Of a DNA stretch of 64,000 bases, positions 47,893 to 64,000 are shown piece after piece. Both the position numbers and the translations under genes were made by a program. The notes below the pieces were generated by a model. The model searched no databases. It was not told where the DNA came from and saw only the letters and a list, made by a program, of their open reading frames with translations. The stretch comes from Dehalogenimonas formicexedens (GTDB taxonomy: Bacteria; Chloroflexota; Dehalococcoidia; Dehalococcoidales; Dehalococcoidaceae): positions 1,578,210 to 1,642,209 of the forward strand of contig NZ_CP018258.1 of NCBI RefSeq assembly GCF_001953175.1. Direction: 5' to 3'. How positions within the stretch are numbered: position 1 is the first letter of the stretch; every line of letters starts with the position of its first letter.

Positions 47893-48192
47893 AAATTTCA
47901 GTCGGGAAAGACTAAAGACAATAATAATTAAGTAGTCTGTTCAGCCGGTACGCCGAAAACCATGGTCAACCCTCCTCAGCAAGCCCGAAATCCTGTCGCC
48001 AATACAACTATACTCCGGGTTCGGCGGGTTCCAATCCGTAACATCACCTATTTTCGGGGGAGAAGGCTACTGATGTTTTGGAAAATCAGGTTATTGGAGA
48101 GTTCGTTCACGTGCCGGGGAACAGAGGGAGGAAGGGGTTCCGGATCCAGTCATGACAACCGGTCGAGTGGATAAAGTTGGGGTGAGAAATGG

Positions 48193-48266
48193 TAGCGCAT
48201 ACGGGATTCGAACCCGTGATCTCTGCCTTGAGAGGGCAGCGTCCTAGGCCGCTAGACGAATGCGCC
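48193..48266 (-). tRNA. tRNA-Glu (anticodon CTC), integration target
   Basis: A 74-nt cloverleaf on the minus strand: acceptor GGCGCAT/ATGCGCT, D-arm TCTAGCGGCCTAGGA, anticodon stem CTGCC/GGCAG around CTCTCAA (anticodon CTC), and T-arm ACGGGTTCGAATCCCGT. CCA follows directly in the DNA (48190-48192), unlike the TTC isoacceptor at 29.8 kb. The first 23 nt are also the last codons of the serine recombinase gene. Confidence 0.93.
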
Positions 48267-49764
48267 GCGAGGAATCTGGCTGCCGACTCAGGACGGGTTC
48301 CGTACCTTTACCCCGGGAGGAGATCAAGGCAAAAGGCGGGTTCAACTCAAATCCGGCAATCTTACCATCGCGAACCCTTACCTGTTTGAACACCGTTTCA
48401 CAGAGCAAGCGCCGGTTGTTATTATCGCCATTTTCGAATAACAAGTCAAACTTACTGGCAAGCTCCAAAGCTATTTCAAAGTCACCCCTTATCAGGCCGC
48501 GCCGCGTGCTTACAGTGGTTAGGAGGTCCCTGAGATTGGCCCTTTCGGCCTCGATGCGTGTCCGGTGTTCCCTATAGTCTTCTTTTGAGACGTCCTCCTC
48601 CAAGAGCATCTCCTGGAGGTGATTTTCCATCCGATCCAATTTCAGAAGCCGCTGCCTGGCCCGCTCCAATTCTTCATCCCCGTTGTTTTCGGCGGCAAAC
48701 CATTTGCTGAGTTGCACTTCAAGTTCAACTTTCCCCTCTTCGGTTATGGTGATGTCTTTGATGACTTCGAAAAGCTGGCCATCGATATCGCGGGTATTGT
48801 AGAAGATCTGACTGCCATTGACCCTTCCCTTGGTGCGGTAGTAGCTGATCTTCTTCTTCGGATGCGTCTCAACAAAGCAAGGTGTGGCGGTGTCATCGGA
48901 GTACAACAGCCCCCGCAGAAGATAGGTGTGGCGCTGGGTGCGTTGCTTGTAGTTATCATGTGATCTCAGGATCACATTTACCGTGGCGAAAGTATCGGCC
49001 TCGGTAAGAGCCTCGTGATTGCCTTTGTTAGGCATGTCGCCCTTCTTAAGCCAAGTCTCCCCAAGATAAAAGCGGTTGTGAAAGACAAAACTCCAGAGAC
49101 CGCTTGAAATACGAAAGCCTTTCCGGCTGCGATAGCCCTGACTATAAACGTAGTCCGCCCACTCTTTTATGGTCCATTTCCCCGAAGCCATCTCCCTGAA
49201 GGCCCTGGTTACGAGAGGGCCGAGTTCGGGATCAACTTCGATCCAGGCACTGCTTTTGTCATGCTTATTGAGATATCCGAGGGGCGCCAGTTTCGGCCAA
49301 CCGCCTTGCTCAACCTTCTCTTTAAGTCCCTTTCTGGCTTCAACAGCCAGATTCTTTGAATACCAGGTGCTGATGATCTGCATCATCCGCCGGCCGATGT
49401 AACCGGCTGGCGTGGAGGCATCCCCCGGCTCGCTGACGCTCTCGAGACTTATGCTGAGTTCTTCCAGTTCTTTCTCATAAACAACGAAGTCATAGTCATT
49501 TCGAGCGAAACGGTCGAATTTGTGAACGAGTATTATGTCAATTTCTCGTGCCCGGGCAGCGCTGATCATTTTCTGGAATTCGGTGCGCTTATCGGTGCGG
49601 GCGCTCTCACCGGCATCGACGTACTCCTTGACCACCTCCCAGCCGTTACCCTTGGCATGATAGCGGCACCTTTCAAGCTGAAATGGAATGGAGAGGTCCC
49701 GTTCCGCTTGCTCCTCGGTGGAAACCCTGGCGTAGATAGCGACCCTTTTGACATCACCGCTCAT
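48244..49764 (-). CDS. Large serine recombinase (integrase)
   Basis: A 506-residue recombinase. The resolvase catalytic domain starts AIYARVSTEEQAERD with the nucleophilic Ser in YARVST. Arg residues follow in DKFDRFARND, then a recombinase domain (KWTIKEWADYVYSQGYRSRKG, SSGLWSFVFHNRFYLGE). The zinc-ribbon region (LLRGLLYSDDTATPCF) has lost most of the usual cysteines. A coiled coil follows (about 370-430). I start at ATG 49764, which has GGAGG upstream and overlaps the ImmA-like stop (ATGA). The C-terminal codons lie within tRNA-Glu, so integration at this tRNA is the natural reading. Confidence 0.92.
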   Translation of the reverse strand: MSGDVKRVAIYARVSTEEQAERDLSIPFQLERCRYHAKGNGWEVVKEYVDAGESARTDKRTEFQKMISAARAREIDIILVHKFDRFARNDYDFVVYEKELEELSISLESVSEPGDASTPAGYIGRRMMQIISTWYSKNLAVEARKGLKEKVEQGGWPKLAPLGYLNKHDKSSAWIEVDPELGPLVTRAFREMASGKWTIKEWADYVYSQGYRSRKGFRISSGLWSFVFHNRFYLGETWLKKGDMPNKGNHEALTEADTFATVNVILRSHDNYKQRTQRHTYLLRGLLYSDDTATPCFVETHPKKKISYYRTKGRVNGSQIFYNTRDIDGQLFEVIKDITITEEGKVELEVQLSKWFAAENNGDEELERARQRLLKLDRMENHLQEMLLEEDVSKEDYREHRTRIEAERANLRDLLTTVSTRRGLIRGDFEIALELASKFDLLFENGDNNNRRLLCETVFKQVRVRDGKIAGFELNPPFALISSRGKGTEPVLSRQPDSSRRIRLAA

Positions 49765-50723
49765 GGCAACCTCCAACTGCATCTATTCGGATTATGGCAC
49801 CTTTTTTCGGACGGGCAAAAATGGTCTCCATTGACTGATACCGGTTCGAGTAATTCCAGTTGCGGGGCAAGCATACCGCACTCTTCACTGGGTACGGCAA
49901 GGAGAATCACCCTGTATGGCTCGAGACTTGAGGTAAATAACGGACGCACCAGGACCGCGGGGGAGTTTTCGATATGCGGGCTGCGCCACAAAAGCGATTT
50001 TCCGCCGGTAATGGCGGCGCACACCAGGGAGGCGGTCTCGGGTCGGCTATGGCGGGCCGGCGTCGGCTGCACCCAGCAAAGGTTTTTGGTCCGGCGAGCC
50101 CGTCCTGTTTTCACAACCACCGTCGCCACGAAATCATCAGCCTCAGCCTTCTCGGCGGCGGGAGTCTTCGGTTGGTGCTCGTACAGCGCCCCGATAAGCG
50201 GAATATCGGTGTGGTGCTGCCCTAGGGCGATCATCAGGCATTGATGCGAAAGTCCGAGTTCTTCGCCCAATTTTACAAGGTCGCATCCGGTCCTCCCCAC
50301 TTGCTCCAGAAAGAAGACCGACGGTATCAAGGCAGAAGCGGCGAAACGGTCGGCGTGCTGGCTGAGTTTGGGTTCAACCATCGGGCTAATGCCAGCGTCG
50401 ATAGCGCTGAGCTCTTTATGTATGATTTCAAAAAGCTCGTGGAAGATGTCGAACTTCTGAGTGCCGGTGCGGTCTTTAGCCGCGTAATGGATATGCCAGG
50501 ATCCCCTGGCCGACATGTTGGTGCCGCCACTGTCCAGGTAAACGACGCCCTCGATCTTGATATCGAATGAACGTATCAGTTCAAGGGTCTTTTTGAGGCT
50601 CGGCGTGCGGTCGATCCCGGCATAATCTCGAAATAAAGACGCCAATCTCACCGGGTCACCAGCATCCTGTCCCTCGCTAAGGGCAAAACGGCAGAACTCC
50701 ATGAGTCTATCAGAAACGGTCAT
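49761..50723 (-). CDS. ImmA/IrrE-like metallopeptidase homologue
   Basis: A 320-residue protein. Residues 40-150 follow the ImmA/IrrE layout (IDRTPSLKKTLELIRSFDI, then QKFDIFHELFEIIHKEL, then QHADRFAASALIPSVFFLEQ). The zinc motif HExxH appears as HELFE, with the second His replaced by Glu, although another His lies three residues on. The C-terminal 110 residues are unrecognised. In phages and ICEs such a protein cleaves the XRE repressor encoded next to it. Here it sits 15 bases after an XRE gene and overlaps the integrase. Proteolytic activity is uncertain. Confidence 0.72.
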   Translation of the reverse strand: MTVSDRLMEFCRFALSEGQDAGDPVRLASLFRDYAGIDRTPSLKKTLELIRSFDIKIEGVVYLDSGGTNMSARGSWHIHYAAKDRTGTQKFDIFHELFEIIHKELSAIDAGISPMVEPKLSQHADRFAASALIPSVFFLEQVGRTGCDLVKLGEELGLSHQCLMIALGQHHTDIPLIGALYEHQPKTPAAEKAEADDFVATVVVKTGRARRTKNLCWVQPTPARHSRPETASLVCAAITGGKSLLWRSPHIENSPAVLVRPLFTSSLEPYRVILLAVPSEECGMLAPQLELLEPVSVNGDHFCPSEKRCHNPNRCSWRLP

Positions 50724-50738
50724 GTAATCCCCCGGGTA

Positions 50739-51137
50739 CTAAATTGTGAGCAACTTCTTGCCGGTCAGGGTTTCGTAGACGATGACGATGCCGCGTTTGG
50801 CTTCGATGCTTAAGGTCTCGCCCCTGATACGGGTGCCGAGCTTATAGTCCGGGTCGGAAAGCACGTACTGGAAAGCGGCTTCGATTCGCTCGTCTTCGCT
50901 GGCCGTAACTTCGCGTTCGTCCAGGTAACCGGCCCTCATAAATAACTCCCTCGCCGTTACCTTATAGGCGGGAGCCAGTTTCTTGAGAATTTCCGGTCGA
51001 GGCGTCGGCTTTTCGCCTGTTTCTATCTGGGAGATATAGGCATTAGAAACGCCGCTTACCTTTTCGACTTCACGCATCGACATGCGCTGCCTCTCCCGGA
51101 GACTCCGCAGGTATTGACCAAAAGTGAGTTCTGCCAT
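50739..51137 (-). CDS. XRE-family repressor
   Basis: A 132-residue repressor. Residues 6-62 are a Cro/C1-type helix-turn-helix (GQYLRSLRERQRMSMREVEKVSGVSNAYISQIETG). The C-terminal part has a beta-rich stretch ending ETLTGKKLLTI. It is first in the leftward operon with the ImmA-like protein and recombinase, and faces a divergent promoter. The likely job is to keep the element quiescent and repress one or both promoters. Confidence 0.88.
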   Translation of the reverse strand: MAELTFGQYLRSLRERQRMSMREVEKVSGVSNAYISQIETGEKPTPRPEILKKLAPAYKVTARELFMRAGYLDEREVTASEDERIEAAFQYVLSDPDYKLGTRIRGETLSIEAKRGIVIVYETLTGKKLLTI

Positions 51138-52025: not shown

Positions 52026-52923
52026 TGAGGGGTTTCCCTACCCGGTACCGACCGATTACTTCGTCTGCCCGGATGAGGTCAGGAAAATCTTCGGAGAAAA
52101 ACCCACCGAGCTTGCCATCATGCTGCCGACCGAAGACCCAAACCAGTGGGCAGGCCAGTACCTGCGGTGCTATTCGTCCTACCGCGGCCTCATCTGCCGC
52201 GGCGACGGCGAGACCGCCCTCGCCAGGGTGAATATAAAGACCGGCCGCATCGCCACCCATGAGGACGTAGAGACCGAGCTCAGGGAGATCACCTGTAGCC
52301 CGAAGACATGCGCTCATTATGAGACCCTCCGCTGCAAACGGGTGATGAATTTACAGTTCCTCATCCCCGACTGCCCCGGCCTGGGCGTCTACCAGCTCGA
52401 TACCAGTTCGTTTCATTCCATCGTCGGCATCAATTCAAGCCTTGAACTTGTTAAGGCCGTCTGCGGCCGGCTGTCGATGATCCCGTTGTCCCTGAGGCTC
52501 ATTGAGAAGGAAGTGGAGGTCGATGGGAAGAAAAAGACCGTCCGGGTTCTATCCCTGACTGCTTCATACACGCTGGCTGAAATCCAGAAATTCGCCCAAA
52601 TGCCGCCGGGCCAGGTGCTGGTTCTGCCGCCGCCTGACAGCGAGGCTCCAGACGACCTTTTCCCGGAGGCAGTAATCAGCAAGGAGAATGTCAGGCTCGA
52701 GGACGGCGTTACCGAACGCGACCTGATCAAACTTTGGGACCGGGCGAAGAGCAAGGTCTGGCAGCTCGATATCCGGGAGCACCAGCTCAAGGAGTGGTTT
52801 GAGAAGCACTGCCACGTCAACGTCGAAATGGACGACTTCAACTGGCCGCTGCCGCCGGCGAAATTCACCGCCGAAGGCCTTAACCGGTTCCTTAAAGCTG
52901 TCGACCGCGACGCCGCTTCCTAG
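51943..52923 (+). CDS. Candidate recombination directionality factor (gp3-like)
   Basis: A 326-residue protein. A middle cluster TCSPKTCAHYETLRCKR, then LQFLIPDCPGLGVYQLDTSSFHSIVGIN, recalls the Cys cluster and 'C-x-G-x-x-Q-L-x-T-x-S' block of phiC31 gp3-like directionality factors, which bind serine integrases and reverse their direction. The following LSLRLIEKEVEVDGKKKTVRVLSL is also of that type. A serine integrase in the same element supports the idea. AAGGAGGAG precedes ATG 51943. The assignment is from remembered pattern only. Confidence 0.45.
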   Translation: MSPIKGITGVIRLPRLGKIRLGLRKESSEGFPYPVPTDYFVCPDEVRKIFGEKPTELAIMLPTEDPNQWAGQYLRCYSSYRGLICRGDGETALARVNIKTGRIATHEDVETELREITCSPKTCAHYETLRCKRVMNLQFLIPDCPGLGVYQLDTSSFHSIVGINSSLELVKAVCGRLSMIPLSLRLIEKEVEVDGKKKTVRVLSLTASYTLAEIQKFAQMPPGQVLVLPPPDSEAPDDLFPEAVISKENVRLEDGVTERDLIKLWDRAKSKVWQLDIREHQLKEWFEKHCHVNVEMDDFNWPLPPAKFTAEGLNRFLKAVDRDAAS

Positions 52924-52936
52924 AGCGAATATCACC

Positions 52937-55225
52937 ATGAAAGACATGAGCGGTGAAAAGGCCGCTACTGGAGGCGTGTTCTCCGAGGCCGTGCCGGAGC
53001 TTCTGGAAAATCATCTGAAGCATCTTCTGGAAGAAACCGGCCTCGATCTCGACATCATCCGGGAGCGGAAATACCGGAGCATTGTGGGCAAAGCCGAGCT
53101 TGCCAGGCTCGGTTTTGCACCGGCACAACAACAGGTCCCCGGACTTTTGATTCCCCTCTGGGGCGTCGATGGTCAGGCAGCCGGTTGCCAGCTCCGGCCT
53201 GATAATCCTCGCACCAACAACCAAGGCAAGATAGTGAAGTACGAGCTCCCGGCCGGTTCGTCGAACCGCCTCGATTGCCCGCCTCGATGTCACAAAGCCC
53301 TCGGCAATCCGAAAGTTCCTCTCTGGATTACCGAGGGCTCGAAGAAGGCCGATGCCCTGGCTGGCCGCGGCGCCTGCGCCATATCCGTCACCGGCGTCTG
53401 GGGCTTCAAGGGCAAGAACGAGTTCGGCGGCGTCACCTTCCTCGCCGATTGGGATTACATCGCCCTCAAAGACCGCACTGTTTACCTCGCCTTCGACTCC
53501 GACATCGTCACCAAGGAGCCGGTAAGGAAAGCGCTGTCCCATGTCGCCGAGCATATCCGGCGCAAAGGGGCGAAAGTGCAAATCGTCCAACTGCCTCAGT
53601 TGGAAGGTCAGGGCAAAACAGGCATTGACGACTATCTGCTGCGACATTCCCTTGCCGATGCCGAAAAACTGGTTGGCGAGTTTAAGCTGGAAGAGGAAGA
53701 CCGGGAACGCTATGTCTCCGGCTTCGTCCTCCGCGATGGCACGGTGGGCGAGATGGTGGTCGACGAAGACGACCGTTATTTCATGGTTTCGGATGGCGGG
53801 GCAATCAAAAAGGTCTGGCAGTACGACACCTCGAAGGTGGCTTACTTGCCAACCGCTGATCCACTGGTCGGCCAGGTAGTGCACTTCGCCCCTGGCGCCA
53901 CGCCCTATGACTCCCAGGCAATCCTCTTCAGCGAGGTAAAGAACTTCATTCACCGTTATATGGAACTGCCGGCCGACTTCGAGGAGATCGCTTCGCTCTA
54001 TGTCCTTTTAAGCTGGGTATATGAGTTTGCCCCGTCGATTCCCTATCTCCGGGTGATTGGCGACTGGGGCACTGGCAAGACGCGCTTTTTGCAGGTCGTA
54101 GGCAGCGTCTGCTTCCGGCCGATGTTTGCCTCAGGCGCGACCACCCCGTCGCCGATCTTCCGCATCCTGGAACAATTCCGGGGAACGCTGGTGCTTGATG
54201 AAGCCGACTTCAAGGATTCTTCCGCCTGGACGGAGATGGTGAAGCTTCTCAATAACGGCTACCGGCCGGGTATGCCGGTCCTTCGAGCCGACAAGGAAAA
54301 CGGGAAATGGTTTCCGCGGGGCTACCAGGTGTTCGGCCCGAAACTTCTGTCGACCAGGTTTCCTTTCAGCGACGAGGCCCTGGAGAGCCGCTGCCTCACC
54401 TCCGAGATGATGCCTCTCACCCGCGACGACATCCCCCGGGTGCTGCCGGCATCGTTCGACAAGGAAGTCGGGACCCTGCGCTCAAAGCTGTTAACTTTTC
54501 GTCTTCATAATCTCTGTCGCCTGAAGGGCAAGACCTTTGGCAACGAACTTCTCGAACCGAACCTGCAGCCACGGCTTCAGGAGATCCTCATCCCGATGAA
54601 AGCGATGCTTAACGGCGACCATGCCATGGCGGAGGCGCTGGGCAGTTTCGTCCACCGGCTGCAGGAGTCGCTTTACACTAGGCGCCGGGAGAGCGATGCG
54701 GGACGGGTACTTGCCGCCATGATCGAACTGCACTTGAAAAATCAGGAACTGTCCCTCAAAAACATCGCCTTATACGCCAGCGCTATAGACGAAGAAGGGG
54801 CTCCGTTTAACCCGGAAAAGGCTGGCTGGCTGACCCGGCGACTGGGCTTTCAAAAAGAGAAGGGAAGCACCACCCGGCGAAGGGTGGTCTGCTGGGATCA
54901 GGCAAGGGTCGAAAGCCTGGTCAAGCAGTACGGCCTTGCGCTCGAAACCCCCGTATCGGTGGTAAAACCTTTCATTCCTTTCGAACCTTTCGAAACAGCT
55001 TCGGATTCCCCGAAAGGTTCTGCCGGCGAGGAAAAACCTTTCGCTGAAAAAGCCGGAAATATTGCGGATTTAGCTTCAAACGGGGCGAAAGGTTTGGAAA
55101 CCGCGGAAAAACCTTTCGAAAAACCTTTCAATCGTGAGCCTGAACGTGAGGCGAAAGGTTTGAAAGGTTCGAAAGGTTCTGAGCCGAATGCGGCGCCTCA
55201 TCATCAGCCGGAGGAAACTACATGA
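52937..55225 (+). CDS. Replication protein: DUF3854 (TOPRIM-like) plus helicase
   Basis: A 762-residue protein. Residues 30-260 fit DUF3854, a TOPRIM-like primase-associated domain (LWITEGSKKADAL; VYLAFDSDIVTKEPVR; KTGIDDYL). Residues 340-560 are an ATPase with Walker A in RVIGDWGTGKTRFLQV, Walker B in LVLDEADF and sensor residues in FGPKLLSTRFPF. The last 90 residues are a low-complexity tail of KPF and KG(L/S) units encoded by repeated octamers. The protein probably opens and primes the element's DNA. ATG 52937 was chosen over the frame's earlier start, which overlaps the previous gene. Confidence 0.78.
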   Translation: MKDMSGEKAATGGVFSEAVPELLENHLKHLLEETGLDLDIIRERKYRSIVGKAELARLGFAPAQQQVPGLLIPLWGVDGQAAGCQLRPDNPRTNNQGKIVKYELPAGSSNRLDCPPRCHKALGNPKVPLWITEGSKKADALAGRGACAISVTGVWGFKGKNEFGGVTFLADWDYIALKDRTVYLAFDSDIVTKEPVRKALSHVAEHIRRKGAKVQIVQLPQLEGQGKTGIDDYLLRHSLADAEKLVGEFKLEEEDRERYVSGFVLRDGTVGEMVVDEDDRYFMVSDGGAIKKVWQYDTSKVAYLPTADPLVGQVVHFAPGATPYDSQAILFSEVKNFIHRYMELPADFEEIASLYVLLSWVYEFAPSIPYLRVIGDWGTGKTRFLQVVGSVCFRPMFASGATTPSPIFRILEQFRGTLVLDEADFKDSSAWTEMVKLLNNGYRPGMPVLRADKENGKWFPRGYQVFGPKLLSTRFPFSDEALESRCLTSEMMPLTRDDIPRVLPASFDKEVGTLRSKLLTFRLHNLCRLKGKTFGNELLEPNLQPRLQEILIPMKAMLNGDHAMAEALGSFVHRLQESLYTRRRESDAGRVLAAMIELHLKNQELSLKNIALYASAIDEEGAPFNPEKAGWLTRRLGFQKEKGSTTRRRVVCWDQARVESLVKQYGLALETPVSVVKPFIPFEPFETASDSPKGSAGEEKPFAEKAGNIADLASNGAKGLETAEKPFEKPFNREPEREAKGLKGSKGSEPNAAPHHQPEETT
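54966..55178. repeat. Array of ten AACCTTTC/GAAAGGTT octamers
   Basis: AACCTTTC occurs at 54966, 54984, 55035, 55110 and 55122; its complement GAAAGGTT at 55012, 55087, 55153, 55162 and 55171. That is ten exact copies in 213 bases, five in each direction, inside the 3' end of the replication gene. The copies keep the codon frame and give KPF or KGL/KGS. The array could be an origin or protein-binding site. Confidence 0.75.
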
Positions 55226-60461: not shown

Positions 60462-60757
60462 TGGGATTTTTAGAAGAAACTCACTCCTCCTTTAATGGTA
60501 TAAAAGCGGAGCTTCCGCATGGTGATATGCTGTTGAGTATGCTATTTGAATAGTTTTCTTTGTATTTGCTGAGCAATTTAATGCCCCCTCGCCACCCCTC
60601 CCCTCATCGCCATGTTTAATCTCCTCTCCGTCTCCCCCCTGGCCTTTCAGCCTTTGATTTCAACGAAGTATGAGTAGAAGTCTGGTTTTGTTAGAGAACG
60701 GCCAATTGAGGTGTCTATTTGCGCGATCGTATTCAAAGCTAAAATACCCTCACCCTA
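60462..60757. other. Non-coding spacer after the UvrD gene
   Basis: About 300 AT-mixed bases with a GCGGAGCTTCCGC hairpin near 60508 and runs of C. I see no gene. A promoter follows. Confidence 0.5.
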
Positions 60758-60988
60758 TTGACAGGCCAGACACAGCCTGTATAATCTGATTTCGTAAGCC
60801 TCGTGAGCTTGCTGGAAAAACCCGGCTCACGAGGCTCGTTGTTTTTCACGGCAGCTCACAGGCTCGCACAAGGGGTCAGCACTCCGGACCGGCAAGGTTC
60901 AGGCTGACCCCTTTGCCTTTCCGCCCGGAGTGCAACCCCGAAATCGTCCCGGCCGCGAACGGACCGAGACTAAAGAGGAGGTGCCCGC
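60758..60988 (+). ncRNA. Structured leader of the late operon with promoter
   Basis: TTGACA (60758-60763) and TATAAT (60780-60785), 16 apart, precede three RNA elements. First, AGCCTCGTGAGC (60797-60808) pairs with GCTCACGAGGCT (60825-60836), then a T-run: a terminator only five bases into the transcript. Its left arm can also pair with GCTCACAGGCT (60854-60864). Second, AAGGGGTCAGC (60870-60880) pairs with GCTGACCCCTT (60903-60913). Third, GCACTCCGG (60879-60887), in that loop, pairs with CCGGAGTGC (60925-60933) beyond it: interleaved stems, a pseudoknot or switch. Confidence 0.6.
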
Positions 60989-61201
60989 ATGGGAAAGTAC
61001 GCCAGCTGGAACGACCTGGAAAAGAACGTCCCCGTCGCCTACCAAGAAAAAGCCACCCCCGAAGCCTTCCGCACCGGCATGAATGGCATCGCGCCGTCCG
61101 GTCTGAAGGTGAAAGAGGGGCGGGTTAATCACTATCGCGACGGCGTCGACGGCAAGGGTCCGGTCATGGTTAGCGGCTACAAGCGCGCCATGTTCGAATA
61201 G
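60989..61201 (+). CDS. First late-operon protein, unknown
   Basis: A 70-residue soluble protein. KYASWNDLEKNVPVAYQEKA suggests an initial helix, and the rest is Gly-rich and basic (SGLKVKEGRVNHYRDGVDGKGPVMVSGYKRAMFE). AGGAGG precedes ATG 60989. I recognise no family. It is the first gene after the structured leader. Confidence 0.6.
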   Translation: MGKYASWNDLEKNVPVAYQEKATPEAFRTGMNGIAPSGLKVKEGRVNHYRDGVDGKGPVMVSGYKRAMFE

Positions 61202-61343: not shown

Positions 61344-61547
61344 ATGTTCAATCCACAGCAAATCAGCGGGCCGGTAGCGCCGGGGCAATATAACCCGATG
61401 CAGGTGAGCGGCCCGGGCTCTTACTACCCCACCCAGACCACCGATCCCTTTTCAGGGATGTTTTCCGCCATGATGCCCATGATCATGATGGTGATGATGA
61501 TGGCTATCATCATGCCCATGATGAAGGGCGTCACGTCTAAGGACTGA
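61344..61547 (+). CDS. Met-rich single-helix membrane protein (copy 1)
   Basis: A 67-residue protein. Residues 1-35 are a Gly/Pro/Gln/Tyr-rich, probably exposed segment (QQISGPVAP, SGPGSYYPTQTTD). Then comes a membrane helix with 12 methionines in 24 residues (about 38-61), and a short charged end (KGVTSKD). It is a close paralogue of the next gene. Such composition is very unusual. GAGGAGGCAGCG precedes ATG 61344. Function unknown; a structural or membrane-remodelling role is inferred from size and context. Confidence 0.65.
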   Translation: MFNPQQISGPVAPGQYNPMQVSGPGSYYPTQTTDPFSGMFSAMMPMIMMVMMMAIIMPMMKGVTSKD

Positions 61548-61583
61548 ACTAAAACGAAAGTTACTGTAGGAGGTAGCTAAACC

Positions 61584-61778
61584 ATGTACGCAACACAGCA
61601 GTTCGCCGGGATGCAGGCCCGGCCCCAGCAATACCAGTACGGCACTGTCGGCGGCTACTATCCCCAGCAGACCACCGACATGACGAGCATGTTCTCGGGC
61701 ATGATGCCCATGATCATGATGGTGATGATGATGGCCATCATGATGCCGATGATGAAAGGCATCACCGGTAAATCCTAG
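61584..61778 (+). CDS. Met-rich single-helix membrane protein (copy 2)
   Basis: A 64-residue paralogue of the preceding protein: a Gln/Tyr-rich exposed start (ATQQFAGMQARPQQYQYG), the shared YYPxQTTD block, a membrane helix with 13 methionines in 24 residues and a terminal KGITGKS. GTAGGAGGTAGC precedes ATG 61584. The pairing of two near-identical small membrane proteins recalls major and minor coat subunits or pore subunits. That is inference. Confidence 0.65.
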   Translation: MYATQQFAGMQARPQQYQYGTVGGYYPQQTTDMTSMFSGMMPMIMMVMMMAIMMPMMKGITGKS

Positions 61779-61809
61779 GCGAGGCAAATTCAATACAGGA
61801 GGTAAATTC

Positions 61810-62397
61810 TTGAACAAGAAGATTGTTCCGCAGCAATATCCGGGCTATCCCGGGGCGCGGCCTCCCAAGGGCTGGGTGCCTCCCCTGGGTCAGTCGTTGG
61901 CGCTGCTCGGCGTGTACGACAACGAGTCTGGCAACTGGATGGGTCTGCCGCTCCAGGTATTTAGGGAAGCCCTGCTAAACGCCGAGGCAATCCATACCGA
62001 AGACCGCATCGACGAGCGCGACAAGGTCGAGGTAACCGTGCCTGATGCTTCGGCCCAGGATACGGTCAAAACCGTCGAGCTCGAGGTGCCGGCAGGCGAG
62101 GTCTGGTTCCTGAACCGCCTCAACTTGGTCACCGAAGCCGAGGTGTCGGGCAACTTCCGTGTCTCGAAGTTCCCAAAGTCAGACACCATCGACAAGAAAT
62201 ACTTGGGCACCGACCAGGCGGCCGGGGCTAATACCAACTACGACCTGGCCGCGGCCGGGCAGCTCGGCGCCGATCTCCGGCTCACCCCTGGCGACAAGCT
62301 GACCGTGGTCGCCACGGTGACCGCCGCCGGCGGCACCACGGCAGCCCGAAAGGTGACCCTTAATCCGTACGGCCGCAAGGCCAGGCGGCTAGTCTAA
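61810..62397 (+). CDS. Beta-rich protein, possible structural component
   Basis: A 195-residue protein starting at TTG 61810 with a strong CAGGAGGTAAATT site. Residues 1-45 are Pro/Gly-rich (QQYPGYPGARPPKGW). Residues 75-195 show alternating strands: VKTVELEVPAGEVWFLNRLNLV, GNFRVSKFP, DKLTVVATVTAAGGTT. The phrase EVPAGEVWFLNRL resembles beta-sandwich proteins of virions. No membrane helix. I do not know the family. Confidence 0.55.
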   Translation: MNKKIVPQQYPGYPGARPPKGWVPPLGQSLALLGVYDNESGNWMGLPLQVFREALLNAEAIHTEDRIDERDKVEVTVPDASAQDTVKTVELEVPAGEVWFLNRLNLVTEAEVSGNFRVSKFPKSDTIDKKYLGTDQAAGANTNYDLAAAGQLGADLRLTPGDKLTVVATVTAAGGTTAARKVTLNPYGRKARRLV

Positions 62398-62414: not shown

Positions 62415-62915
62415 ATGCCCTATGCGATGGTGCCGCCGGGCTACCGGGCTATCCCACTGGGGCAAACCGGTAGCATTGAAGGACTGGGCGCCTTCGCCCC
62501 GCTCGAAGAGAGCTCAGACGAAGGCGCTCTTTTCTTAGCCCGGCTCGATTTCGAGGAATTTCCTTCGGGCGAGATAATGGCGCAGCTGGAGCAGGCTTTT
62601 AGCGATGCCGGAGTCGAGCATTGGCCCGGCTATAGCTATATCGTACATGCCGATTCGGGCAGGCCTGCCGTTTATCTCGCCTGGCAGAAGGGATTCGCCT
62701 GGCTGCCGATCATTGCCGGCATTATCGGTTTCATCGCCCTGCCGCCGCTGGTCGGCACCGTCATCTGGTGGCTGATCCCGGAGGATGTGAAAAACCTCAT
62801 CTCCAGCCTCATCAACATGGGCATGATGCTGCTTGTTATGTACATCCTGATGCAGGTGATGAAGCCGCTCGCCGCGCCTAAAAAGCCCAAGAAATTACCC
62901 GAGGCTAAAACATGA
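62415..62915 (+). CDS. Membrane protein with soluble head, two helices
   Basis: A 166-residue protein. Residues 1-90 are a soluble alpha/beta-like head (ALFLARLDFEEFPSGEIMAQLEQAF). Two helices follow (about 93-118 and 124-150: WLPIIAGIIGFIALPPLVGTV; LINMGMMLLVMYILMQVM), then a basic Pro/Lys tail (APKKPKKLPEAKT). GGGAGGC precedes ATG 62415. It overlaps the next gene (ATGA). Family unknown. Confidence 0.6.
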   Translation: MPYAMVPPGYRAIPLGQTGSIEGLGAFAPLEESSDEGALFLARLDFEEFPSGEIMAQLEQAFSDAGVEHWPGYSYIVHADSGRPAVYLAWQKGFAWLPIIAGIIGFIALPPLVGTVIWWLIPEDVKNLISSLINMGMMLLVMYILMQVMKPLAAPKKPKKLPEAKT

Positions 62916-63073
62916 ACGGCTACCCCACAGAGTACAACACCTACCAGCCGATGTTCTGGCAGTCGGCATTTTCTGCGATCATCGGCGTTGCCATGATGAT
63001 CGCCCTGGGTACCTGGGCTCTGTCCACGGTGAGAAAAGCCTTGAAAGGCGAAGACGTGGAGTTTCCATTATGA
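62912..63073 (+). CDS. Tiny single-helix membrane protein
   Basis: A 53-residue protein not usually called because of its size: a Tyr/Pro/Gln-rich start (NGYPTEYNTYQPMFWQ), one helix (about 18-38, AFSAIIGVAMMIALGTWAL) and a basic-then-acidic tail (VRKALKGEDVEFPL). The ATG overlaps the preceding stop, and its own stop overlaps the next ATG. Coupling on both sides makes it credible. Family unknown. Confidence 0.6.
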   Translation: MNGYPTEYNTYQPMFWQSAFSAIIGVAMMIALGTWALSTVRKALKGEDVEFPL

Positions 63074-63636
63074 GCCAGGCATCATCGGTCATGGGTGGCG
63101 CGCTGGGCGATGTCTTCTGGGACCTGCCGCCATGGCTTTACTACACCCCAGGTTATGATCTGGGTCTTTCCGTTTATGTGGCCAATCCCACTGACGTGGA
63201 GCAGGAATACGCCCTGATGGCCCGGCTGTCGCGGGACACTACCCAGATTAGCGAAGAAGCCTTGCCGGTCTTCGGCTACACCTGGTTCAAGGTCGAGCCT
63301 GGGGACCTCGCCCAACTCAAAGGCGCTTTGCGTTTTTCCGAGACCAACGCGGTCCTTGCGCTGCTTTTACACGAGAAAGAAAGCGGCGAGGTCATCGACT
63401 CAGTGGCCACCATGCTGGTAGCGCCGGGTAGCTCGGTGCTGCCGCCGGCCTGGCCCGGTGCGCCAGGAAACGCCGGCTCTTCAGGCTTCGACTGGACCTC
63501 GCTCATGGGACTCATGTTGCCGGTTTTGATGCTGGGTATAGTGGCCTCGGCAATGAAGCCGAAAACAGACAAGGCCAAGCAGCTTGCGCCGGCAAAAGAA
63601 CCCGCAAAACAGTTGCCGGTCGGGAGGGGAAGCTGA
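63070..63636 (+). CDS. Membrane protein with beta-rich head and C-terminal helix
   Basis: A 188-residue protein. The N-terminal 125 residues are beta-rich (YDLGLSVYVANPTDVEQEYALMARLS; LPVFGYTWFKVEPGDLAQLKGALRF), the pattern of an immunoglobulin-like sandwich. A helix follows (about 140-158, SLMGLMLPVLMLGIVAS) and then a basic Lys/Pro/Ala tail, like the product at 62415. It is coupled to both neighbours by overlapping stop and start codons. Family unknown. Confidence 0.6.
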   Translation: MSQASSVMGGALGDVFWDLPPWLYYTPGYDLGLSVYVANPTDVEQEYALMARLSRDTTQISEEALPVFGYTWFKVEPGDLAQLKGALRFSETNAVLALLLHEKESGEVIDSVATMLVAPGSSVLPPAWPGAPGNAGSSGFDWTSLMGLMLPVLMLGIVASAMKPKTDKAKQLAPAKEPAKQLPVGRGS

Positions 63637-64000
63637 TGCCCGGCGAGTTTTACGTCGAGGGAAGCAAGGCGAAGCTGAGCCTTAAAGCCATCGAGACGGC
63701 CATCGCCAACCTCGAGGCGAGGCTTGAGGCGATTAGGAACCAGACCGACAAGTTATCCGGCGAGATCCCGTATGTGGGTTTCACCATAGCCGACTGGCAG
63801 ATCGCCGAGAGCAACCTGATCGTCGTCGGGGCACCGGGGGTGAAGTACAAGCTCCACGACCTTTCCCTCGGTATCCAAAACCTTGCCGGAACTCAGATCA
63901 CCATCAGGCTGTATAAGCAGATAAACGGCATCGAGCGAAAAGTGTATGAACAGTCTTTCGACGCTGCCGCGGATGGCCCAGGCTTGCCGGTGGTCAACGG
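63636..64000 (+). CDS. Late-operon protein, 3' end outside window
   Basis: At least 121 residues, running off the right edge. A helical coiled-coil-like start (LSLKAIETAIANLEARLEAIRNQ) is followed by beta strands (NLIVVGAPGVKYKLHDLSLGI; TQITIRLYKQING). Its ATG overlaps the previous stop (TGATG). A coiled coil plus beta domain would fit a trimeric fibre or spike, but that is a guess. Confidence 0.6.
   Translation, partial: MPGEFYVEGSKAKLSLKAIETAIANLEARLEAIRNQTDKLSGEIPYVGFTIADWQIAESNLIVVGAPGVKYKLHDLSLGIQNLAGTQITIRLYKQINGIERKVYEQSFDAAADGPGLPVVN

Follow-up and report, generated by a model that had tools for sequence, protein, structure and literature searches.

The major coat proteins of Inoviridae of the Pf3 and M13 type are 50-70 residues long and form one helix, and the Pf3 coat protein is made without a signal peptide. 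Spindle viruses of the Fuselloviridae type also have small hydrophobic coat proteins, which contain two membrane helices, and some spindle viruses encode MoxR-type ATPases. The capsids of PRD1-like viruses (Tectiviridae, Sphaerolipoviridae, Simuloviridae and allies) are formed by double or paired single jelly rolls, and several short single-helix proteins are encoded beside the jelly-roll genes in mobile or temperate genomes (see also PMC12643093 and PMC12642351). In the host family considered here, the Dehalococcoides prophage of Waller et al. 2012 is described as Siphoviridae-like in a passage of PMC3462421.

We describe a locus that resembles each of these systems in part, in a 64,000-nucleotide window of the Dehalogenimonas formicexedens genome. 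It encodes two adjacent small paralogues, hereafter the twins, whose predicted membrane helix is about half methionine. We interpret them, with a probability of roughly 55%, as membrane proteins that act in pairs as structural parts of a temperate, virus-like and so far undescribed element of Dehalococcoidia. Their helices would pack together, and with the Met tails of other late proteins, into a patch of particle membrane. The twins head the late run of the element together with a third small gene, in the following order.

60989-61201, + strand: conserved small protein of 70 residues, first gene of the operon, with a paralogue further downstream
61344-61547, + strand: twin 1, 67 residues; Met-rich helix at residues 37-60 (window 61452-61523) with 12 Met in 24
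61584-61778, + strand: twin 2, 64 residues; Met-rich helix at residues 34-57 (window 61683-61754) with 13 Met in 24
61810-62397, + strand: protein of 195 residues, a possible capsid protein with a single jelly roll at residues 63-192 by structure prediction
62415-62915, + strand: protein of 166 residues with two C-terminal membrane segments, 6 Met in 24 and a basic tail
62912-63073, + strand: single-span membrane protein of 53 residues
63070-63636, + strand: protein of 188 residues with a C-terminal membrane segment (4 Met in 24) and a basic tail
63636-64000, + strand: fibre-like protein of 155 residues (coiled coil then beta, by eye), running past the window edge
L009:13596-14852, beyond the window: subtilase of 418 residues with a Met tail
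L009:16367-16831, beyond the window: Ig-like protein of 154 residues with a Met tail

Further fibre-like genes precede the subtilase, and small membrane proteins, beta-sandwich-like proteins, the 154-residue protein and a recombinase follow it.

An earlier note, made from the letters of this DNA, had proposed two adjacent paralogous reading frames with a common YYPxQTTD block and a 24-residue helix containing 12 or 13 Met, and all of this was recovered on the + strand. The frames are separated by 36 bases, both are preceded by strong Shine-Dalgarno sequences, and the blocks read YYPTQTTD and YYPQQTTD. In each twin, Met was counted in the 24 residues before a conserved Lys, and hydropathy assigns one membrane segment to each protein. 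The exposed segment had been called rich in Gly, Gln and Tyr, which holds, with Pro equally rich and left out of that description. The composition had further been called very rare, and the host genome bears this out: no stretch of 24 residues holds more than 4 Met in 97 called host genes from three flanks outside the element copies, and hydropathy-based membrane segments contain 3.0% Met in the host (2128 residues) versus 14.6% in the elements (874 residues). At a Met frequency of 3%, the naive binomial chance of at least 12 Met in any one stretch of 24 residues is about 9e-13.

The twins are real genes under purifying selection in the named frame. Their pN/pS ratio is 0.09-0.29 in all ten pairwise comparisons and is the lowest of the six frames wherever it is defined; the minus frames over the twins have no pN/pS support. 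A minus-strand open frame of 121 codons lies opposite the twins (window 61452-61817) and is His-rich only as the mirror of the ATG-rich coding strand. The density of ATG in the DNA would suit untranslated frames or a Met run that is an artefact of ATG repeats, a reading that can practically be dismissed given the in-frame ratios, the strong Shine-Dalgarno sequences and the family-wide conservation. A chance or untranslated frame is ruled out by the ratios, by the host maximum of 4 Met in 24 and by that conservation, and an ATG microsatellite by the Ile, Val, Ala and Pro codons that break up the Met run and by its maintenance as protein. As to whether the family had been characterized before, a point that the earlier note had raised along with translation, the twins gave no Pfam match over the cut-off, no PHROGs match and no PDB sequence at E 1, and no description was found in the literature, most subscription journals lying outside that search.

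Only two Met positions, -13 and -2 from the Lys, are fixed in the family (30 of 30 helices). The others drift to Leu, Ile, Val or Phe, and distant relatives have as few as 7 Met in 24. The numerous MxM and MxxM spacings would be compatible with copper binding by the helix or with a role as an oxidation switch, close to the copper-binding or oxidation-sensitive bundle of the earlier note, but the drift of all but two Met positions lends this no support, the family matches include no copper gene, and the hosts are strict anaerobes. We consider such a role very improbable.

The two helices of a pair resemble each other more than they resemble their counterparts elsewhere. Across 15 elements, the twin 1 and twin 2 helices of the same element agree at 83% on average, versus 58% (twin 1) and 60% (twin 2) for orthologous helices of different elements, and the N-terminal parts show the reverse, with 50% agreement within an element and 57% and 62% between elements. 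The partner from the same element is the single best helix match in 6 of the 15 elements, is tied in 4 and is beaten by a foreign twin 2 in the remaining 5. None of 100,000 permutations equalled the observed likeness, a figure that overstates the significance, the rows being related. Judged by these alignments, the case for likeness within pairs is carried by four far lineages, in which the own partner scores above the best stranger helix: G310 (0.96 vs 0.58), G079 (1.00 vs 0.38), L061 (0.88 vs 0.62) and L063 (0.92 vs 0.75). Twins are paired in all 15 elements compared, the exception being a lone relative of 77 residues, without a partner, in G047.

Codon comparisons argue against recent gene conversion as the sole and general cause of this likeness. 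At positions where the twins share a non-Met residue, identical codons are used in 4 of 9 cases in element A, 5 of 11 in element C and 6 of 14 in G079. In these three elements the codons thus differ at half or more of such positions, and selection on the protein is the likely cause of the likeness there. In G310 and L063 the twin helices look like products of recent conversion or duplication, with 13 of 13 and 11 of 13 identical codons, and the other five pairs fall between (5/9 to 9/13 and 11/15). Helices kept alike and exposed parts kept different are what would be expected if both helices share one lattice.

Other late proteins have a Met-rich helix of this kind as their C-terminal tail. 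It contains 11 Met in 24 residues in the 154-residue Ig-like protein and 9 in the subtilase, and the recurrence is weaker in the 166- and 188-residue proteins, with 6 and 4. In G079, a distant relative from the same order, a segment of this type is present in proteins of 567 and 99 residues and in two small proteins next to a far homologue of the 195-residue protein, and another contig of that genome encodes a 71-residue protein of the Met-helix type behind a leader RNA, a second one beginning at the contig edge. Inspection by eye revealed no obvious N-terminal signal sequence in the Met-helix proteins, and we accordingly take all of them to be anchored in one membrane by their C termini. By the positive-inside rule, the 166- and 188-residue proteins would have their basic ends in the cytosol, which a simple tail-anchor model fails to explain. 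The helix of the 154-residue protein was not confidently modelled (pLDDT under 50), and a fold search with this protein returned generic beta-sandwich rows only (Z to 9.4).

This recurrence bears on the possibility that the twins are small lysis proteins of the holin or pinholin type that form an exit pore. Their size, single helix and pairing resemble those of small holins, but the same type of helix forms the tail of a protease and of an Ig-like protein, the twin genes head a run of structural genes, and better holin candidates exist in two other small proteins with two spans each (63 and 102 residues), which makes this reading improbable. In the subtilase, columns D103, H135, N246 and S320 are invariant among 11 sequences, and from the motifs we take them to be the S8 catalytic residues. 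The hosts have no normal peptidoglycan wall, and the single Mur-ligase-type match in the host genome (40 bits) is consistent with its absence; exit or entry would therefore be better served by a protease than by an endolysin.

The 195-residue protein encoded directly after the twins contains a predicted beta domain at residues 63-192, modelled with middling confidence (mean pLDDT 64.7). Fold searches with residues 61-194 returned, at 8-10% identity, PHM (Z 9.1), nucleoplasmin-type cores (Z 8.6), the KHP40 phage cement protein (Z 8.5) and the satellite panicum mosaic virus coat protein (Z 7.3). In BFVD, coat proteins of small circular DNA viruses rank best together with unnamed phage proteins, with TM-scores by query of 0.26-0.42 in the first ten rows. 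In our reading, the model is that of a single jelly roll and would be suitable for a virion; the arrangement is a common one, the Z-scores are in the range of such domains and a function is not implied.

The fibre-like genes vary between elements. At L061:12085-16283 the fibre region is expanded, with Fn3-like domains and coiled-coil repeats, which suggests host-range variation. Several other features of the late run were noted in passing. The 70-residue protein and its 101-residue paralogue (L009:18953-19258) both start MGKYA, the family opening the late run and returning downstream. Proteins of 128 residues (L009:15359-15745) and 200 residues (L009:15755-16357) have a common C-terminal motif ending in D-F-A-K-V. 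A protein of 491 residues, encoded from L009 position 19258 into L010:733, combines a short N-terminal domain that resembles DUF192 by eye, a membrane segment and a region of zinc-protease type.

The late run belongs to an integrated element, the recombinase and regulators of which lie near one end and are followed by the replication genes, the J-domain and AAA genes and the operon of the twins.

48244-49764, - strand: serine recombinase, adjoining tRNA-Glu at 48190-48266
49761-51137, - strand: ImmA/IrrE-type protease and Cro/CI-type repressor
52799-55225, + strand: DUF3854 primase/helicase, 808 residues
55664-56047, + strand: J-domain protein, 127 residues
56049-56969, + strand: MoxR/RuvB-like AAA ATPase, 306 residues
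58551-60461: UvrD helicase

A tyrosine recombinase and a sliding clamp are encoded further right. The UvrD helicase is absent from all 16 regions compared, some of them short contigs, and is probably cargo. The order of J-domain protein, AAA ATPase, twins, 195-residue protein, membrane proteins and subtilase is largely kept in the distant genomes G342 and G310, with rearrangement in G342.

The host genome, a single contig of 2,092,789 bases, contains three twin pairs, and the shared blocks of its element copies are 75-92% identical in DNA. A scan of nine element regions with ARAGORN located tRNA genes ahead of the recombinase in seven of them (Glu; Ile, Ile; Ala; Ala; Val; Ala; and a Phe-Leu-Gln-Asn cluster) and none in the other two. 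G004 retains the left flank, and tRNA-Glu was not seen in the stretch read there. The exact ends of the element were not located, and neither a direct repeat nor an attachment site nor a clean empty site was found. A site-specific recombinase, a repressor, multiple copies and proximity to tRNA genes were all observed, and the element thus has the markers of a temperate mobile element. Beyond the element, a gene for a 300-residue protein (G000:C1:1661086-1661988) encodes a product 100% identical to one in G003, and a second recently moved region may adjoin there.

The element fails each of the virus families named above on at least one of the features compared. A PHROGs scan of 29 element proteins and Pfam scans returned no terminase, portal, HK97 capsid, FtsK/HerA packaging ATPase or Zot family; the P-loop proteins in the scanned set are the primase-helicase, UvrD and a cargo AAA protein. 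The element is thereby unlike Caudoviricetes of the siphovirus-like type, in terminase, portal and capsid, and unlike the prophage of Waller et al. 2012, with which it shares the host family and the proviral state. It resembles PRD1-like viruses in its short single-helix proteins beside a predicted jelly-roll gene and in its mobile genome, but has no recognised packaging ATPase or capsid family of theirs, and has paired Met-rich helices of a type common to a protease. As to the jelly rolls of these viruses, one single jelly roll is predicted in the element, at the middling confidence given above. Unlike Inoviridae, it is much larger, encodes a primase and a clamp, and has two coat-like proteins, a jelly roll and fibres. 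The one membrane segment of each twin sets them apart from the Fuselloviridae-type coats, to which they have no sequence match. No known phage type was accepted for the element, no hallmark family having been found.

The twin profile matched 14 of 393 genomes of the class, in one case by way of a related tail alone, and the subtilase profile matched 13 of 294 at E 1e-60. The profile of the 195-residue protein matched 7 of 400 genomes drawn from the phylum, all in the Dehalococcoidaceae, the family of the window itself; the protein had no match in INPHARED. All eight matches in the named-genome collection are Dehalococcoidia or Chloroflexi assemblies, and no relative of the twins outside these groups was found there or in IMG/VR. 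Protein and pattern scans of IMG/VR returned one contig with close relatives, besides one distant subtilase; that record looks like a provirus from the genome of an isolate, and no free virus was seen. The subtilase matched 308 plasmid records, all below 60% identity, and those among the rows listed are annotated as ordinary S8 proteases or carry no annotation.

Under a different interpretation, the gene cluster would encode an apparatus for secretion or for the cell surface that is non-viral and borne by an integrative element, the twins being its membrane base or a pilus-like polymer. The missing capsid and packaging hallmarks and the lack of free viral contigs would fit such an apparatus, as would the AAA protein, MoxR-type ATPases serving many assembly systems. 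However, the Pfam-scanned proteins include no conjugation family, and the CI/ImmA regulation, the element's own replication genes and its fibre-type variability look viral. We regard a non-viral apparatus as a serious but rather unlikely alternative, and infer that the element is a virus, probably a membrane-containing one, known here from its genes alone.

Upstream of the late operon, we detected a promoter-like site and a structured leader.

60750-60988, + strand: structured leader of the late operon (RNA model R1, 259.5 bits)
60758-60785, + strand: sigma70 promoter-like site, TTGACA-16-TATAAT, 12 of 12 positions, a consensus match only
60797-60836, + strand: leader hairpin 1, terminator-like, then a T-run
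60870-60931, + strand: leader hairpin 2 (60870-60880 with 60903-60913) and pseudoknot helix 3 (60881-60887 with 60925-60931), in which the loop of hairpin 2 pairs with downstream bases

A perfect promoter-like site lies 231 bases before the first gene in 6 of the 10 elements checked, and weaker sites are present in the other 4; about one promoter-like site would be expected by chance in the region, though usually not a perfect one. Across 15 elements, 98.3% of 462 cells of the leader alignment pair and 17 of 31 pairs changed on both sides, counts that lean towards helices 1 and 2, to a model of which the alignment was fitted. Helix 3 is absent from that model, and 4 of its 7 pairs changed on both sides. 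A first alignment of 9 sequences, not so fitted, contained 4, 3 and 4 such pairs for helices 1, 2 and 3, respectively, and did not support a fourth small helix. In the 15-element alignment, sliding the pairing partners destroys the pairing and covariation signal. A search of Rfam returned 13 sub-threshold rows and none at the gathering score.

In 294 genomes of the class, the leader model matched 18 places in 12 genomes at E 1e-6, and 15 of these are in twin-bearing elements. The prediction that every leader precedes twins failed in all three leader-only places, G045 (L154), G047:C19 (L155) and G144 (L156). At the G047 place, a short piece of the operon's first gene remains, and the G045 leader lies ahead of a cassette that, by eye, encodes ParB-like and serine-recombinase-like proteins.

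Among the roles suggested for the twins by the earlier note, that of a major membrane subunit fits best, because they are early structural genes behind a consensus promoter, are paired, adjoin a jelly-roll protein and have a helix that is reused as a tail; their abundance is the conjectural part of this role. We propose that late transcription from the consensus promoter, which the leader RNA may gate, would yield the twins in quantity, each as a short soluble N-terminal segment and one membrane helix. Made without signal peptides, they would insert by a tail-anchor or YidC-like route, and the J-domain protein of the element may keep them and the Met tails soluble; in yeast, J-proteins aid the targeting of tail-anchored proteins (PMC8054193). 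The twin helices, for which Met would provide flexible, unbranched and easily packed surfaces, would pack together and admit the similar tails of the subtilase and the Ig-like protein, forming one protein-rich membrane patch. The jelly-roll protein and fibres would assemble on this patch, possibly helped by the AAA ATPase, and the patch would become the particle membrane.

A further-reaching version of this proposal is tentative, and we hold it to be less probable than not. The element would found a virus lineage of Dehalococcoidia with a particle built on a membrane lattice of paired half-Met helices, the shared C-terminal Met helix would be an address tag by which the protease and further proteins of the virion are placed in that lattice, the protease would replace an endolysin, and the pseudoknot leader would gate late transcription past a terminator.

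If our reading is correct, bacteria used in the clean-up of chlorinated solvents carry as many as three copies per genome of a virus type that escapes hallmark-gene searches. The shared Met helix would then be a clear test case for two questions, how membrane proteins are selected for a virion and why a membrane would be built from methionine in nature. The carrier hosts include cultured strains, and the claim is testable now.
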